From Candidatus Hydrogenedentota bacterium (GTDB lineage: Bacteria > Hydrogenedentota > Hydrogenedentia > Hydrogenedentales > JAEUWI01): a stretch of DNA of 32,491 nt. Location: contig JAEUWI010000071.1 in NCBI GenBank assembly GCA_016791475.1, positions 1 to 32,491 of the forward strand, read 5' to 3'. The notes below the pieces were generated by a model. That model searched no databases and had not been told where the DNA came from. It was given only the letters and a program-made list of their open reading frames with translations. The first letter of the stretch is position 1, and every line of letters starts with the position of its first letter. The position numbers and the translations under genes were made by a program. Positions 806 through 31,235 of this stretch are shown piece after piece.

Positions 806-845
806 GACAACACCCGGAATCCGTTACGGATTCGCGGGCGTTGTC
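806..845 (-). terminator. Hairpin after the secreted-repeat gene pair, probable terminator
   Basis: A long imperfect inverted repeat (acaacacccg-gaatccg against cggattcgcgggcgttgt, loop TTA, one bulge) lies 17 bases past the stop codon of the gene ending at 862. The T-run after it is poor on the minus strand, so termination is likely but not certain. Confidence 0.5.
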
Positions 846-861
846 GGGCGGAAGGAGCATA

Positions 862-1221
862 TTACTTACTTGAATTCTTGTGCTCTTTTCCGTTGAGACC
901 GTGCTCGTGCATTACCGTGCTGGTGGCCTCTGGCGTATCAGCCGACCACCCTTGAAGACCTACATTGAGTACGGGTTTCAAGAATCGTCCCTTGCGCTCG
1001 TAGGTGCCGAGGTCGCCTTTGTTGATGAGCGCCTTACTTTCGTCCGGGGTGGCAATTGCTTCAGTCCGGGTTGAAGTGGTGAGAATCGGCTTCACGAAGC
1101 GTCCCTGGCGGACATAGGTTCCGAGGTCACCTTTGTCGATGGTGGTCTCTGCGAAGGCCGTGGTTCCCAGGGTGGCGAGGGCGAGGGCGCCCGCAAAGGT
1201 GAGTATCAGAGACTTTTTCAT
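862..1221 (-). CDS. Small secreted protein with two DKGDLG-type repeats, downstream paralogue
   Basis: I do not recognise this 119-residue protein. It starts with a clear signal peptide (MKK, hydrophobic core, predicted cut after AFA at residue 24), so it is exported. The mature part has two copies of a 20-residue motif, I-(D/N)-K-G-D-L-G-T-Y-x-R-x-G-R-F-x-K-P-(I/V)-L, at residues 28-47 and 66-85. A shared GWSAD segment (about 91-95) and a polar tail HEHGLNGKEHKN follow. The ATG at 1221 has AGGAG upstream; the open frame extends to 1437 but into the 3' end of the paralogue. It is about 65% identical to the protein at 1338-1709 and is probably cotranscribed with it. No cysteine or catalytic motif is present; a structural, envelope-associated or ligand-binding role is possible but unproven. 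Confidence 0.85.
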   Translation of the reverse strand: MKKSLILTFAGALALATLGTTAFAETTIDKGDLGTYVRQGRFVKPILTTSTRTEAIATPDESKALINKGDLGTYERKGRFLKPVLNVGLQGWSADTPEATSTVMHEHGLNGKEHKNSSK

Positions 1222-1236
1222 GGTTATTCTCCTATT

Positions 1237-1249
1237 GCCCCGTTGGGGC
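1237..1249 (-). promoter_or_regulatory. GC hairpin in the leader of the downstream secreted-repeat gene
   Basis: The stem gcccc/ggggc with a 3-base loop sits directly before the AGGAG ribosome site and ATG at 1221. A similar GC block (1726-1737) occupies the same position before the paralogue's ribosome site, so the leader was duplicated with the gene. It could influence translation, but this is inference. Confidence 0.3.
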
Positions 1250-1337
1250 GTGGCGGGCGCGCTGCCGGACGGCTCTTCGCCCAATTTCGGTATGGCATTC
1301 AGGTCAATTTCAAGTAGTACTCGGGTGGTTGGCGTGC

Positions 1338-1709
1338 CTAGCTCGCGCGCTTGTGCCCGATGTTCCTGTGCTCTTTTCCATCGAGACCATGCTTGTGTGC
1401 GACGTTGCTGACAGGTACGGCCGCATCCGCAGACCAACCTTGGTGGCCGACTTCCAGTACAGGTTTCAGGAAACGTCCCGTGCGCTCGTAGCTGCCGAGG
1501 TCGCCCTTGTCGATAACTGCACTGCGCTGGGTCTGACCCGCGACGGCTTCAGTTCGGAGCGACGACGTGAGAACCGGCTTTACAAAGCGGCCCTGGCGGA
1601 CATATTTTCCAAGGTCGCCCTTGTCGATGGTGTTTTCGGCGTAAGCCGCGCTTCCGAGTGTTGCGATGGTGAGTGCACTCGCGATGGTGAGTATCAGAGA
1701 CTTTTTCAT
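1338..1709 (-). CDS. Small secreted protein with two DKGDLG-type repeats, upstream paralogue
   Basis: This 123-residue protein is the first gene of a tandem duplicate pair. It has a signal peptide (residues 1-24, cut after AYA). Two 20-residue motifs follow, at 28-47 (IDKGDLGKYVRQGRF, then VKPVL) and 66-85 (IDKGDLGSYERTGRF, then LKPVL), joined by a linker of 18 residues. Then come GHQGWSAD and a His/Lys-rich end (HKHGLDGKEHRNIGHK). The start at 1709 has GGGAG at good spacing. The most constant residues are K-G-D-L-G, Y, R, G-R-F and K-P-L, repeated four times across the pair. A sigma-54-type promoter lies about 160 bases upstream, next to a gene for an NtrC-type regulator. The family is unknown to me; function is not assigned. 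Confidence 0.87.
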   Translation of the reverse strand: MKKSLILTIASALTIATLGSAAYAENTIDKGDLGKYVRQGRFVKPVLTSSLRTEAVAGQTQRSAVIDKGDLGSYERTGRFLKPVLEVGHQGWSADAAVPVSNVAHKHGLDGKEHRNIGHKRAS

Positions 1710-1879
1710 GGCTATTCTCCCTGTTGCCCCGGGGGGCCTGTATGGGTGCGAAGCAATTAAAGCGTCTCACCCGGTTTCAATTGGTTGCTCTGGGTTTCCG
1801 CGAGCCTTGGAGCTTTCCGTCCGAGCTGAGCACCCGGCTTCACCTTGCTCCCGGCCTTGCGGCCCTTGCCTTCGTTAGC

Positions 1880-1895
1880 GCATCATTCGTGCCAG
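1880..1895 (-). promoter_or_regulatory. Sigma-54 (RpoN) -24/-12 promoter for the secreted-repeat pair
   Basis: The minus strand reads CTGGCACGAATGATGC. It matches the consensus YTGGCACG-N4-TTGC at every informative base except one (A for the first T of TTGC). The invariant GG and GC are exactly 10 bases apart. Predicted transcription starts at about 1868 and runs into the gene starting at 1709. The adjacent genes encode a sigma-54-dependent regulator with its kinase, which strengthens the call. Confidence 0.7.
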
Positions 1896-2206: not shown

Positions 2207-4006
2207 ATGTTGGGAAGAAGCCTTAGGAATCGCGTGTTTTTCGCGCTGACCCTCCTCTCTCTGTTGCCGCTCGTGAGTACAGCCTATCAAGGTTATCACT
2301 GCGGGCGGATGGTGGTCATGGACCTGCTGCAGCAGCATGCCATTTCGGTTGCCGAGGTCCATCAGACCATGTTTACACAGTGGCTCGAAGAGCGAACGCA
2401 GGACACCGACGCGATTGCCAGTATGCCCCTCGTCACCGACTGTCTTGAGAAAATTCTAGGAGAACGCGATGATGCCGCAGTCAAGATCCTGGGCGACACC
2501 CTTCGCACCGTCCAGTCTGCCGGCGCAATCTATGAGCAATTGGAAATCTTTGATTCCACATGGAGGCTGGTCGCGTCGTCCCGGGATGGCAAACACTCCG
2601 ACGCCCGATTAGTCGATCCCGATTTTCAAGAACACGTGCGCGATGCCGCTGGAGTCTACTTCGGCCAGGTCCACCGGCACCGTGAAGGCGACATGGGGAC
2701 ACACTTCGGAAGGAGGATCCGCGATGGCAACGGTGAGACACTAGGCTACCTCGTCGCAAATCTCAATCTGACCACGAGCCTGACGCCGCTGCTCACGGAT
2801 CGCAGCGGACTATGGAGTACGGGGGCAGTCTATATTGTTAACGCGGAATCTCGACCTATCATTGGAACCAACGACAACAGTGGGGAGCCTTCCCTCGTGC
2901 CGCCACGAAGGGATGAAACAGGAATGGGCGATCACTCTGGCGGTGTAGCCCCCCGTTCAGCGCGCCACGCGCTCAAGACAATTGGCGCATCGATGCCCCT
3001 CCCGATAAATGATTGGCGGGTGGTCGTCGATATCGATATGGAAGAGGCCATGGCCACCGTACGTGTCCTGCTCTATCGAGCCCTCGGGATGGTAAGTGCT
3101 GCGTTGCTCGCGGTGGTTCTGGTTTCACTCTGGCTCTCCAGATTGCTGGGGAGCCCCCTCGCCAATCTGGCCTCGGTCGCGCGAAAAATTTCCGCCGGGC
3201 ATTCCGACGAACGATTGGAACCAATGCATTTGCGCGAAGCCGACGAAGTGCGCAGCGCATTCAATCAGATGCTGGATGAGCTTCGGGACAAGGAAGCCGT
3301 GATTGTACGCTCCGCGAAACTGGCAATTGTCGGAGAACTCACTTCGCGTGTCGTCCACGAAATGCGCAATCCCCTCTCCTCAATCAAGATGAATCTTCAA
3401 GCGCTCAAACGGTCTTCCGATTTGGATGCCGGCGATCAGGAACTTGCGGAAATCGCAACAGAGCAGGCCCAGCGGCTGGAACGTATGCTCAATGAATTGC
3501 TGCTCTACGGGCGGCCAGTTGAACTGCATCTGGAGCCTGTGGCTGTTGCCCGCCTTTTTGAGTCGGCGCTCGCCGACGTACGCGGTGGCGCAGAAGAGAG
3601 GGGGGTGACCATTGAGTCCGGTTTGGACGAAGCACTTGGGACCACCTCCATTTCCGTCGACCCGGATCAATTCTCTCGGGTGCTCACGAATCTGCTGAAG
3701 AACGCGATAGAGGCGTCTCCCGCCGGAGCCAGGGTCCGGTTATGCGCCCATGCCTCCGAACTACAGGCCTCTGAGATAGTCATTGAAGTGCGGGATACGG
3801 GTGTCGGAGTTCGTCCGGAGCATCAGGAGCTACTCTTCAAACCCTTTTTCACCACCAAGGGCAATGGTACAGGTCTGGGCCTCGCCAATGTGCGCAAGAT
3901 TGTGGAGTTACACGCCGGGCGCGTTCACGCGGAAAGCATCTCCTCAGGCGGCACAAGGTTCATCGTCGAAATGCCTTGTACCTCCGCGACCGCCTCGCCG
4001 TGCTGA
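2207..4006 (+). CDS. Membrane sensor histidine kinase, NtrB/ZraS-like
   Basis: This 599-residue kinase senses a signal outside the membrane and phosphorylates the regulator encoded 83 bases downstream. It has a membrane helix at about 10-27 and an extracytoplasmic sensor region at about 28-290 of the Cache type in outline (a WRVVVDI segment precedes the second helix). The second helix is at about 293-312 and a HAMP linker at 312-362. The HisKA box VVHEMRNPL has the phospho-acceptor His384. The ATPase domain has N box NLLKNAIEA (495-503), G1 DTGVGV (530-535), FFTTKGNGTGLGLAN and a C-terminal GGTRF segment. All catalytic motifs are intact. The ATG has only a weak purine-rich ribosome site. The ligand cannot be deduced from sequence. 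Confidence 0.93.
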   Translation: MLGRSLRNRVFFALTLLSLLPLVSTAYQGYHCGRMVVMDLLQQHAISVAEVHQTMFTQWLEERTQDTDAIASMPLVTDCLEKILGERDDAAVKILGDTLRTVQSAGAIYEQLEIFDSTWRLVASSRDGKHSDARLVDPDFQEHVRDAAGVYFGQVHRHREGDMGTHFGRRIRDGNGETLGYLVANLNLTTSLTPLLTDRSGLWSTGAVYIVNAESRPIIGTNDNSGEPSLVPPRRDETGMGDHSGGVAPRSARHALKTIGASMPLPINDWRVVVDIDMEEAMATVRVLLYRALGMVSAALLAVVLVSLWLSRLLGSPLANLASVARKISAGHSDERLEPMHLREADEVRSAFNQMLDELRDKEAVIVRSAKLAIVGELTSRVVHEMRNPLSSIKMNLQALKRSSDLDAGDQELAEIATEQAQRLERMLNELLLYGRPVELHLEPVAVARLFESALADVRGGAEERGVTIESGLDEALGTTSISVDPDQFSRVLTNLLKNAIEASPAGARVRLCAHASELQASEIVIEVRDTGVGVRPEHQELLFKPFFTTKGNGTGLGLANVRKIVELHAGRVHAESISSGGTRFIVEMPCTSATASPC

Positions 4007-4089: not shown

Positions 4090-5430
4090 ATGCGCATGAT
4101 CGTAATAGACGATGACAAGGCCCTTGGCCGCTCACTCCAGATTCACTTGGAGCGGGTGGGGCATTCGGTCGATGTTACACATACGGCGGCGCAAGGCCTG
4201 GACCTGCTGCTCGAGAACGGTTATGACTTGGCCTTCATCGATCTTAACCTTCCCGATATGACGGGCATCGATATTCTGCGCAAGTTCAAAGATATCCGGC
4301 ACAACACGTTCACGGTCATGATCACGGGGATGCAGGATTCGAAATCTACGATCGAAGCAGTGCGTCTCGGGGCCTTTGACTATATCCGAAAGCCGCTGGA
4401 TCTGGACGCGGTAATGGTCACAGTCGAGAAAGTGGCCCACCAGTTTGAGAACCTCACTCCAGGAAAGTTTCAACGCGTCTTTGCGGGCACTGCGGGTGGC
4501 CCGCATGAAATCGTGGGTTCGCATCCAGGCATCATCGAAGTGCTCAAACAGATCGCACTCACCGCGGAGAGTCGTGTGCCCGTCCTGGTGCAGGGCGAAA
4601 CGGGAACCGGAAAGGAACTGGTGGCGCGCGCACTTCATGACACCAGTACGCCGCAGGAACCCTTTGTGGCCGTCAACTGTTCCGCCGTTGTTTCCACGCT
4701 GCTGGAGAGCGAGTTGTTCGGGCATGTGAAAGGCGCATTTACGGGGGCTGATGGGGACAAACCAGGCAAGTTGGAGGTGGCCGGGTCGGGGACTATATTC
4801 TTCGATGAAATTGGAGACATGTCCTACGACCTTCAAGCAAAACTTCTGCGCGTATTACAAGAGCGAGTTTTTGAGCGCGTCGGGAGCACCAAGACCATGC
4901 CGTTCCGCGCACGGGTTATTGCCGCGACCCATCGAGATCTAAAGTCGATGGTTATGGAGCAGAAGTTTCGCGACGACCTGTATTATCGGCTGGCGGTGTC
5001 GACCATCCATGTTCCGCCGCTGCGCGACAGGCGATCGGACATCGCGGGTCTGGCCGAAAACATGCTGGCGCGGCTCGGCCAGGAACTGCACAAGGAGATA
5101 GACGGAATCAGCGAAGCGGCGCTCAAGTGCTGCGAGAATTATGACTGGCCGGGAAATATTCGCGAGCTGAACAACGTCTTGACGCGAGCCGTACTGCTTT
5201 CCCGAGGGCCGGTCATCAGCGAGCAGGGCATTCTGTCGGCTATGGGCAACGGAACGACTGCGGGGATTTCGACTGACGAACTCAAGCCCCTTCGCGACGT
5301 CGAGCGAGACTACGTGTATCGGGTACTGTTGTCCACAGACTGGAATATTTCGAGGGCCTCGGAAATCCTCGATATTACACGCGTAACGTTACGCAAGAAG
5401 ATTGAGGACTATGGATTGGCTAAGCCGTAA
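4090..5430 (+). CDS. Sigma-54-dependent response regulator, NtrC family
   Basis: This 446-residue enhancer-binding regulator activates RpoN promoters when phosphorylated by the upstream kinase. It has a receiver domain (1-115) with acid pocket DDD 7-9, phospho-acceptor Asp51 and Lys101. The AAA+ domain (about 140-370) has Walker A GETGTGKE (169-176), the sigma-54-contacting GAFTGA loop (215-220) and Walker B GTIFFDE (234-240). It also has FRDDLYYRL (293-301) and WPGNIREL (353-360). A C-terminal Fis-type helix-turn-helix follows (about 418-443, [20 protein letters not shown]). Every motif needed for activity is present. The start has AGGA upstream. Its probable target is the -24/-12 promoter at 1880-1895. 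Confidence 0.95.
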
Positions 5431-27473: not shown

Positions 27474-27665
27474 ATGAAGCAAACAAAAACCGTAAAAGAA
27501 CGGCGGATTAAGGCCATTGGTGCGATTCTAGCGTTTCGGAAGACAACGAAACCTATCTCCACGGAGGAGATCTTGCAGATTAAAGAGGAATTGCAGGAAT
27601 CCATTTTCGATGGGCTGGATGGTGCAGATTTTGCATCAACATCCAATTTAAGAGAGGCAAGCCCC
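27474..27665 (+). pseudogene. Leader remnant repeating the antitoxin C-terminal tail
   Basis: Frame-open codons encode MKQTKTVKERRIKAIGAILAF, then RKTTKPISTEEILQIKEELQE. This repeats the last 33 residues of the antitoxin just downstream (about 21 of 33 identical). The frame continues into the antitoxin without a stop, so a 141-residue form is formally possible. However, the ATG at 27474 has no ribosome site and sits right after a TGTTGG/CCAACA hairpin (27452-27472), while the inner ATG at 27666 has AGAGG. I read it as the tail of a lost tandem antitoxin, or as an N-terminal extension if translated. Confidence 0.5.
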
Positions 27666-27899
27666 ATGTCTACTATGAATTTCAGCGTGCCCGACAGGGT
27701 TAAGGAAGAGTTCAACAAATACTTCGCGGGCGAGAACAAGAGCGCCGTACTGACTCGGTTGATGGAAGACGCCATCGAGGCGAAAAAGAAGAAAGAACAA
27801 CGTGCCAAAGCCATGGATGCTATTCTGGAATTCAGGAAGCAGACCAAGCCGATTTCGACGGAGGAAATTTTAAGGACCCGGCAGGAATTGAGGGAATGA
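27666..27899 (+). CDS. Type II antitoxin (VapB-like), partner of the PIN toxin
   Basis: This 77-residue protein begins MSTMNFSVPDRVKEEFNKYF, a ribbon-helix-helix type DNA-binding start. A charged helix (EAKKKKEQRAKAMDAILEFRKQ) and the tail TKPISTEEILRTRQELRE should wrap the toxin. It overlaps the toxin start by four bases (ATGA), so the two are translationally coupled, typical of VapBC. AGAGG precedes the ATG. Autorepression through the palindrome at 27375-27397 is expected. The alternative is a 141-residue form from 27474 with a tail copy on each side of the DNA-binding part. Confidence 0.8.
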   Translation: MSTMNFSVPDRVKEEFNKYFAGENKSAVLTRLMEDAIEAKKKKEQRAKAMDAILEFRKQTKPISTEEILRTRQELRE

Positions 27900-28303
27900 A
27901 ACGAGTACTTGATGCTTCCGTTATCCTCAAGTGGTTTCTGAAAAATCGAGCGGGCGAAGAAGATGTGGAGGCCGCCATGGATATCTTCCGCCGCGTCCGA
28001 AATGACGAAGACCAAACCGTACAACCTGTTCACTGGTGCGCGGAAGTATTGGCGGTATTGGCAAGAGAAGAGCCCCTCTTTGTCGAGTCGGCTGCCGACC
28101 TTCTGGATGAAGTGGCATTCGTCGTGGCCGACAGTTGGCACATTTACAGACGCGCTGCGGAAATGTCCGCCACTCTAAACCATCACCTCTTCGACACGCT
28201 ATACCATGCCGTGGCACTCGAACACGGTGCGGAGCTAATCACAGCGGATAAAAAATACTTCGATAAAGCCCGCGGTCTCGGGTCCATTTCGCTGTTGGGC
28301 TGA
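27896..28303 (+). CDS. vapC: PIN-domain ribonuclease toxin, VapC type
   Basis: This 135-residue toxin should cleave RNA with bound Mg2+ or Mn2+. The four acidic residues of the PIN active site are visible: Asp6 (MKRVLDASVILKWF), Glu50 (WCAEVLAVL), Asp100 (HLFDTLYHAVAL) and Asp118 (LITADKKYF). The form DASVILKWF with HHLFDTLYHAVALEHGAELITAD is the class often paired with a short RHH-like antitoxin, as here. The ATG overlaps the antitoxin stop. The target RNA is unknown. Confidence 0.9.
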   Translation: MKRVLDASVILKWFLKNRAGEEDVEAAMDIFRRVRNDEDQTVQPVHWCAEVLAVLAREEPLFVESAADLLDEVAFVVADSWHIYRRAAEMSATLNHHLFDTLYHAVALEHGAELITADKKYFDKARGLGSISLLG

Positions 28304-30639: not shown

Positions 30640-30846
30640 ATGCGAGCTACGCTGAATATTGATGACGCCCTCCTCGACCAAGTGATGCAATTTACCGAAT
30701 CATCCAATCGCTCCGAAGCGGTCCGCATTGCCCTCAAGGCGTACATACGCCAGCAGGAAATACGGCAGATCCGGGCGATGCGAGGCACGATGGATATCGA
30801 CGAGAGCTGGCGTGAATTGCGTGCGCTGGATACCAGACCTCTATGA
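30640..30846 (+). CDS. vapB: VapB-type antitoxin
   Basis: This 68-residue protein starts MRATLNIDDALLDQVMQFTESSNRSEAVRIALKAYIRQQ, a ribbon-helix-helix domain typical of VapB (formerly DUF2191). The tail MRGTMDIDESWRELRALDTRPL should bind and block the toxin. GGAG lies 9 bases before the ATG. It overlaps the toxin gene by four bases (ATGA). It is not related to the antitoxin at 27666 beyond general type. Confidence 0.92.
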   Translation: MRATLNIDDALLDQVMQFTESSNRSEAVRIALKAYIRQQEIRQIRAMRGTMDIDESWRELRALDTRPL

Positions 30847-31235
30847 GGCCCGTACTTGTCGATACCAGCGCCTGGGTGGATTTTCTTCGTCCCGGATTGC
30901 GGCCACTGGGCGAGCGGGTTGACGAATTGCTGGATGCCGATCAGGCCCGGATTTGCGGCGTGGTCGTCGCAGAACTGTTGCACGGTCTCAAGGGCACAGG
31001 GGAGCAAAGACAGATGCGTTGGCTGCTTGACAGGGTTCAGCGTTTAGACACCATAGAACAAGACTGGGACGATGCAGGAAACTTGCTCCGGGGACTGCGC
31101 GAGAAAGGTTTGACCGTACCTGTGACCGACGCCATACTGGCGGTCGTTGCCCGGCGGAACGACATTGCCGTGCTGACGGCAGACGACCACTTTCGACTTA
31201 TGGGTGCCGCAATCGATACCTCGGACAATCTTTAG
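30843..31235 (+). CDS. vapC: VapC-type PIN ribonuclease toxin
   Basis: This 130-residue toxin has the PIN quartet at Asp7 (VLVDTSAWVDFLR), Glu44 (VVVAELLHGLKG), Asp96 (VTDAILAVVARR) and Asp114 (VLTADDHF). The DTSAWVDF start and ELLHG motif are the classic VapC form paired with this kind of VapB. The start codon overlaps the antitoxin stop. The module lies between an intact DUF3465 gene and a truncated copy of it. Confidence 0.94.
   Translation: MRPVLVDTSAWVDFLRPGLRPLGERVDELLDADQARICGVVVAELLHGLKGTGEQRQMRWLLDRVQRLDTIEQDWDDAGNLLRGLREKGLTVPVTDAILAVVARRNDIAVLTADDHFRLMGAAIDTSDNL

Follow-up and report, generated by a model that had tools for sequence, protein, structure and literature searches.

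A family of small secreted proteins with a doubled motif in Hydrogenedentota and its candidate sigma-54-dependent metal or envelope-stress circuit

Hydrogenedentota are a phylum known mainly from metagenomes. In a stretch of 32,491 nucleotides from Candidatus Hydrogenedentota bacterium (contig JAEUWI010000071.1; here called the window, and the genome that contains it the host), a preliminary description had noticed two tandem genes, each encoding a signal peptide and two copies of a 20-residue motif, and had proposed a new family of small secreted proteins. This raises the questions of whether the family is new, by what its genes are controlled, and what the exported proteins may do. Here, we compared the two genes, designated A and B, and their surroundings with 68 Hydrogenedentota genomes, many of which are fragmented.

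Gene pair, doubled motif and distribution of the family

Gene A (1338-1709, minus strand) starts with ATG and encodes a protein of 123 amino acids (P0001) with a signal peptide, two motif copies and a histidine-bearing tail. Its tandem paralogue B (862-1221, minus strand) encodes 119 amino acids (P0002) from an ATG located after AGGAG; the list of open reading frames had opened B at a spurious upstream TTG (1437), and the ATG was preferred. Both proteins begin with a Sec-type signal peptide (MKKSLILT...AxA; the signal peptides of the family were called by eye), followed by motif, linker, motif and tail, and they are 68% identical with a single gap of four residues near the C-terminus. The motif occurs twice in each protein with the consensus IDKGDLGxYxRxGRFxKP[VI]L. 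In A, copy 1 (IDKGDLGKYVRQGRFVKPVL; 1569-1628, minus strand) is predicted to form a three-strand unit (pLDDT about 80-86), while copy 2 (IDKGDLGSYERTGRFLKPVL; 1455-1514, minus strand) is seen in the sequence, in the shuffle test and in the structure prediction. In B, copy 1 (IDKGDLGTYVRQGRFVKPIL; 1081-1140, minus strand) and copy 2 (INKGDLGTYERKGRFLKPVL; 967-1026, minus strand) are both seen in the sequence, in the alignment with A and in the shuffle test.

The four copies agree without exception in K-G-D-L-G, Y, R, G-R-F and K-P. These elements had been listed correctly before, except that the last one reads K-P-[V/I]-L and not K-P-L. In A, B and seven homologues alike, the internal repeat scored above every one of 2000 shuffles, and both genes are real and lie on the minus strand. 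Between them, dN is 0.19 and dS 0.96 (dN/dS about 0.19) over the whole length; repeat 1 has a dN of 0.06 and the linker one of 0.44. The genes are thus under purifying selection and the motif is constrained, in agreement with the initial impression of a conserved motif against a freely varying linker. The description as four motif copies also holds, but it had overlooked that the C-terminal tail is conserved too (HKHGLDGKEHRN in A and HEHGLNGKEHKN in B). The A-B alignment and the clustering of histidines in the tails define it as HKHGLDGKEH in A (1368-1397, minus strand) and HEHGLNGKEH in B (880-909, minus strand).

None of ten family members matched a Pfam or NCBIfam profile above the curated cut-off; the best match was NF041742 with residues 1-48 of B (E 0.064, well below the cut-off). 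The PDB sequence search gave no credible relative, and in a literature search with the motif strings no paper containing them was found. Placement of the motif inside a characterised family had been named as the result that would speak against a new family, and the profile searches of Pfam and NCBIfam gave no such family. Together with homologues detected only in Hydrogenedentota, these searches support a family that is new to the libraries searched (Pfam, NCBIfam and PDB).

The family is present in six to seven of the 68 genomes. Homologues were found in G035 and G036, which belong to the genus of the host, and in G034 of the same taxonomic family, where two stand in tandem as in the host; G046 has two, and G051 has two plus a third as a fragment. 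Defined by signal peptide, doubled motif, His tail and a length of about 118-130 amino acids, the family comprises A, B and seven homologues, each of which has the tail and one or more clear motif copies. G041 contains a weak remnant of 45 amino acids (L032:9143-9280, minus strand) without signal peptide, with the His tail VIKHHKHTHRYPS and an upstream sigma-54-like site TGGCATGGGATATGCT. A divergent member, G046:C31 (L029:899-1312, minus strand), has more than two motif copies and neither the His tail nor a sigma-54 promoter. When one genome per species was scanned for the core pattern [DN]KG[DEA][LR]Gx[YW][EV]R (about 85,000 species), 22 stretches were obtained, of which five were relatives, four of them in Hydrogenedentota; since the scan demands the core pattern, more divergent relatives could be missed. 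Spread to Planctomycetota was rejected, as the fifth relative, the sole match in Brocadiia (L015:8010-8198), is the C-terminal part of a protein that differs little from a Hydrogenedentota one. It sits at a contig end and continues from an unrelated reading frame, and the contig is probably chimeric or misbinned. An origin from phages, plasmids or viruses was rejected as well: no relatives were found in phages or viral contigs, and the one plasmid match was at chance level.

A stable hairpin without a clear T run (806-845, minus strand) lies downstream of B and is possibly the 3' end of an A-B transcript. Also, a short CCCC-GGGG hairpin is located directly before the ribosome-binding site of A (1710-1760, minus strand) and of B (1222-1260, minus strand), and similar C/G runs precede some homologues, inconsistently. 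An RNA element in the long 5' leader was considered and rejected, as no Rfam match was obtained and the GC hairpin before the ribosome site is not consistently conserved. Elsewhere in the window, a probable toxin-antitoxin pair (27474-28303, plus strand) is formed by a PIN-domain protein (27896-28303) and a 141-amino-acid partner overlapping it by 4 nt, which has no Pfam match and carries A[IM]xAILxFRKxTKPISTEEIL at both ends. A second pair (30640-31235, plus strand) consists of a VapB antitoxin and a PIN toxin.

Adjoining kinase/regulator pair and sigma-54 promoter

Divergently from A-B, the window encodes a sensor histidine kinase (2207-4006, plus strand) with a weak dCache_1 match, HAMP, HisKA and HATPase_c, and an NtrC-type response regulator (4090-5430, plus strand) with receiver, sigma-54 activation AAA+ and Fis-type HTH domains. 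Orthologous pairs adjoin family genes in four genomes, with divergent orientation in the window and in G035, codirectional orientation in G034 and convergent orientation in G046. In G051, the fragment of the third family gene is located just upstream of another such pair. The pair has been kept although the gene order varies, which speaks for a functional link to the family genes; family members unlinked to the kinase occur in G036 and in G051 (C209). As a separate observation, four aligned kinases, that of the window and its relatives, have in common an invariant QGYHC immediately behind the first transmembrane segment.

Upstream of A, a putative -24/-12 promoter of the A-B operon (TGGCACGAATGATGCG; 1879-1894, minus strand) scored 18.2 of 20.4, with 0.01 such sites expected per 350 bp; scoring followed a consensus of the type TGGCAC-N5-TTGC as quoted in PMC3707914, with ad hoc weights. 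Sites of this kind were found within 94-210 bp of the start in eight of ten family genes (scores 17.0-19.4 of 20.4), at a chance expectation of 0.01-0.10 per 350 bp each. The upstream search gave none for B and none for G046:C31, and B, having no sigma-54 promoter of its own, is thus probably co-transcribed with A. RpoN is encoded in the host (G000:C12), so the host has both the -24/-12 promoter and the sigma factor of a sigma-54 regulon. The preliminary description had anticipated that a new family would appear as a spread of short secreted proteins in sigma-54 loci, and the homologues show this pattern.

In most members, the palindrome GGTCAGnnnCTGACC is present 75-100 bp further upstream of the promoter, usually doubled. 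The window has two operator-like palindromes at a distance of 24 bp: the proximal one (GCTCAGGTTCTGATC on the minus strand; 1957-1971) has two mismatches to GGTCAGAnnCTGACC and the distal one (AGTCAGATCCTGACC on the minus strand; 1981-1995) has one. Over the family as a whole, palindromes close to GGTCAGAnnCTGACC stand upstream of most members and are doubled at a spacing of 23-26 bp in five; the matches in G034 and G036 are weak. This combination of predicted promoter and distant palindromes is the classical sigma-54 layout with a remote activator site. For the kinase gene, a sigma-54 promoter of its own was not found; the best upstream scores were 15.5 of 20.4 in the window and 14.0 in G035. 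Judged from these features, control of A-B by the adjoining pair is very probable.

Operator and promoter at heavy-metal genes

Three pattern searches were performed, each combining palindrome and promoter. In the host genome, gene A was the only match in all three. Across the 68 genomes, the strict pattern gave seven matches compared to three for the reversed control: A, a family gene of G051, CusB-type genes in G026 and G036 (two, one of them cut by a contig end), the gene of a YHS/His-rich secreted protein in G041, and one unexplained match. When up to one mismatch in the palindrome was allowed in eight selected genomes, nine of nine sites preceded family genes (four), HMBD-bearing CusB-type genes (three, of which G036:C251 runs off its contig) or genes for YHS secreted proteins (two). 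Matches inside long open frames, such as G035:C17 and several others, were rejected and taken as chance. The operator had been derived from the family genes and was then met at metal genes genome-wide, which makes this a fair test; phylum-wide, the predicted operator-plus-promoter marks almost only the A/B family and heavy-metal genes (CusB adaptors and YHS/His-rich secreted proteins). The domain calls comprise HMBD, CusB-like, YHS, cation efflux, CusA/CzcA pumps and copper-type P-type ATPases. One family gene of G051 that has both operator and promoter stands immediately behind a run of CusA, HD-domain and outer-membrane-efflux genes. In G036, a sigma-54 promoter with a weaker operator is located upstream of two small genes, followed by one for a secreted His/Met/Cys-rich protein (DGKNKHAGHGDHP...; L083:7118-8559, minus strand); these genes are a possible further member of the regulon.

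A profile of the sensor detected kinase relatives in 17 of the 68 genomes. The tree of the kinases places that of the window together with those of G035 and G034 and with a metal-locus kinase of G041, encoded beside a YHS gene (99/98), while the regulator tree was poorly resolved. In locus sets that were selected on account of the kinase, relatives stand beside metal genes in G026 (CusB-CusA-outer-membrane protein), G051 C222 (copper-type ATPase, CusA and CusB), G036 (an ATPase with YHS and HMBD domains and a secreted YHS protein), G037 (YHS protein and efflux outer-membrane protein) and G041 (YHS/His-rich protein with a perfect palindrome).

No metal gene lies next to the module of A-B and kinase in the window. 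The pattern searches for a larger host regulon gave A-B only, and the single HMBD-type CusB gene of the host (G000:C10) was rejected as a member because no promoter of the A-B type was found upstream of it. The metal reading for the host therefore rests on its relatives, and the host pair may have A-B as its sole target and may respond to a different signal. One explanation of this kind is that the promoter likeness reflects a general similarity among NtrC-type systems and that rewiring has put the window pair under an unrelated signal, in which case the metal link of the relatives would be uninformative for A-B. The sensor domains, which differ between the kinases (25-39% identity), and the host metal genes without operator site would be in line with rewiring. 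It fits less well with G036, whose family gene is preceded by a sigma-54 promoter with a weak operator; the one orthologous kinase detected there, split over two contigs, sits in a copper-type locus. Nor does it fit well with G051, where family genes have their operator in common with a YHS gene of the same genome. We regard such rewiring as unlikely.

As the sole detectable target of the circuit in the host, A and B could instead be primarily negative-feedback signalling proteins that bind to the periplasmic domain of the kinase and have no direct protective role. That a family gene adjoins the kinase in four genomes is in favour of this, and ZraP is called a repressor of ZraSR in a title cited in PMC4987338. 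Members that are unlinked to a kinase or located beside efflux genes are difficult to reconcile with a pure signalling function, and the tandem duplication suggests that dose matters, so that we consider this explanation quite improbable. Returning to the metal reading, the signal is rather probably a metal or a metal-related envelope stress.

His tail, related systems and proposed role

Of the 39 histidines in nine family proteins, 29 fall within the C-terminal 25 residues; a hypergeometric test that takes the sequences as independent, though they are related, gives a p of about 1e-10. The tail exists in two types: HxHGLxGKEH in the genus of the host, VVDHxKHxH in G051 and G046 and, with small changes, in G034. 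The mature proteins, mostly of about 90-108 residues, contain no Cys and 0-3 Met each, which argues against binding of soft Cu(I) or Ag(I). AlphaFold predicted each motif to fold as one strand followed by a short turn helix and a pair of strands, with the pLDDT given above for copy 1 of A; linker and tail are poorly defined (overall pTM 0.22-0.26), and the models suggest that each repeat is a small, rigid beta unit and that the chain carrying these units is flexible. A PDB fold search with the predicted models found nothing and is uninformative because of the low model confidence. The preliminary description had read the motif as a ligand- or surface-binding unit, which it may be. With a regulatory context that speaks for metal or envelope stress, the His tail is a likelier metal-ligand part than the KGDLG/GRF motif.

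The mature proteins are mostly basic, with a pI of 8.3-11.0 in nine of ten members and of 9.0-11.0 in eight, and basic and aromatic motif residues are conserved. This would also suit the same circuit responding to a general envelope stress, with A and B as positively charged proteins that bind anionic surfaces (outer-membrane lipid, peptidoglycan or exopolymer) and no functional metal binding. The host module is not located beside metal genes, and ZraP itself is tied to envelope stress (PMC4987338). Because CusB and YHS genes carry the same operator and promoter, the His tail is conserved and one member has a pI of only 6.2, we rate this explanation as somewhat unlikely. It overlaps, as do the other alternatives, with the preferred metal reading and with the rest, and the probabilities expressed here are not meant to sum to one.

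Among known systems, ZraSR-ZraP of enteric bacteria, which has divergent sigma-54 promoters, an NtrC-type regulator and a small periplasmic zinc-binding protein (PMC4987338), is by analogy the nearest working model for the A-B circuit. Common to both are a sigma-54-dependent NtrC-type two-component system, a divergent gene for a small secreted protein, and the theme of heavy metal and envelope stress (PMC4987338). In the window and in G035, the family gene is, like zraP, divergent from the two-component system and has a sigma-54 promoter of its own. Unlike ZraP, none of the ten members had a Pfam match at E 0.1, so no ZraP-type domain was found; further differences are the beta-repeat units predicted in A and B, the two target genes, and the kinase gene of the window, which in contrast to zraSR has no detected sigma-54 promoter. 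Some Hydrogenedentota genomes were annotated with ZraSR in a published survey (PMC10866078), and in the literature on these genomes no description of an output protein was found.

The nearest known sigma-54 copper system, again by analogy, is CorSR of Myxococcus xanthus, a kinase and a sigma-54-dependent regulator with several putative sigma-54 promoters, which control copper genes including copA and a gene for a His-rich secreted protein (PMC3707914). The window likewise encodes a HAMP sensor kinase and a regulator with receiver, AAA sigma-54 and HTH domains. However, the regulator genes of M. xanthus are located inside the copper operon (curA operon), whereas the A-B locus of the host contains no copper gene, and the secreted M. 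xanthus protein is cupredoxin-like, whereas A and B match no such domain. SilE, a small secreted metal sponge, uses His and Met motifs for Ag+ (PMC5008109). A and B resemble SilE and PcoE in being small and secreted, in having a His motif and in the link of the family to metal efflux; they differ in that they lack Cys, hardly contain Met and carry His in the tail alone, and no sequence relation was found in the libraries searched. The HMBD-type CusB and YHS secreted proteins of other Hydrogenedentota have the same operator-plus-sigma-54 promoter as A-B, but they possess recognised metal-binding domains and are not homologous to A and B. A and B fall outside ZraP by sequence and outside SilE/PcoE by composition, and they are therefore to be regarded as analogues of these proteins and not as members of their families.

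Taken together, we slightly favour the reading that A-B is the dedicated output of the divergent kinase/regulator pair within a ZraSR/CorSR-like sigma-54 module for metal or envelope stress, its proteins being secreted to bind metal or to shield the envelope. The kinase would sense an envelope signal, most likely an excess of a copper-like or other heavy metal, or damage caused by metal. The phosphorylated NtrC-type regulator would then bind to the doubled palindrome (1957-1995) and drive sigma-54 RNA polymerase at TGGCACGAATGATGCG, giving rise to the A-B transcript. Exported by their signal peptides, A and B may act in the envelope as small basic accessory proteins with two rigid beta micro-units on flexible linkers, and the C-terminal His cluster may bind metal. 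The outcome could be metal buffering, envelope protection, or feedback on the kinase as described for ZraP on ZraS. What the sequence gives directly is the family with its signal peptides, repeats and conserved tail, the regulator next door, the promoter, the operator and a promoter design in common with heavy-metal genes; binding of the regulator to these sites, metal as the signal in the host and metal binding by the proteins are inferred. Against this reading stand the isolation of the host module from metal genes, the kinase gene without sigma-54 promoter of its own, the composition with no Cys and almost no Met, the low pTM, the G046:C31 member without tail and promoter, and the weak operators of G034 and G036.

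With this reading, a motif of unclear meaning becomes a testable circuit in which sensor, regulator, operator, promoter and secreted output are named at base level, and a heavy-metal sigma-54 regulon is predicted for Hydrogenedentota. A more far-reaching proposal, which we put forward tentatively, is that the family may represent a new structural class of secreted metal-handling protein, built from three-strand micro-units and a His tail without Cys/Met motifs, as an accessory of a Hydrogenedentota-wide sigma-54 metal regulon with the operator GGTCAGnnnCTGACC. Already under the favoured reading, A and B would extend the short list of periplasmic accessory proteins used by metal-stress systems, such as ZraP and SilE, by a protein with no apparent relation to them.
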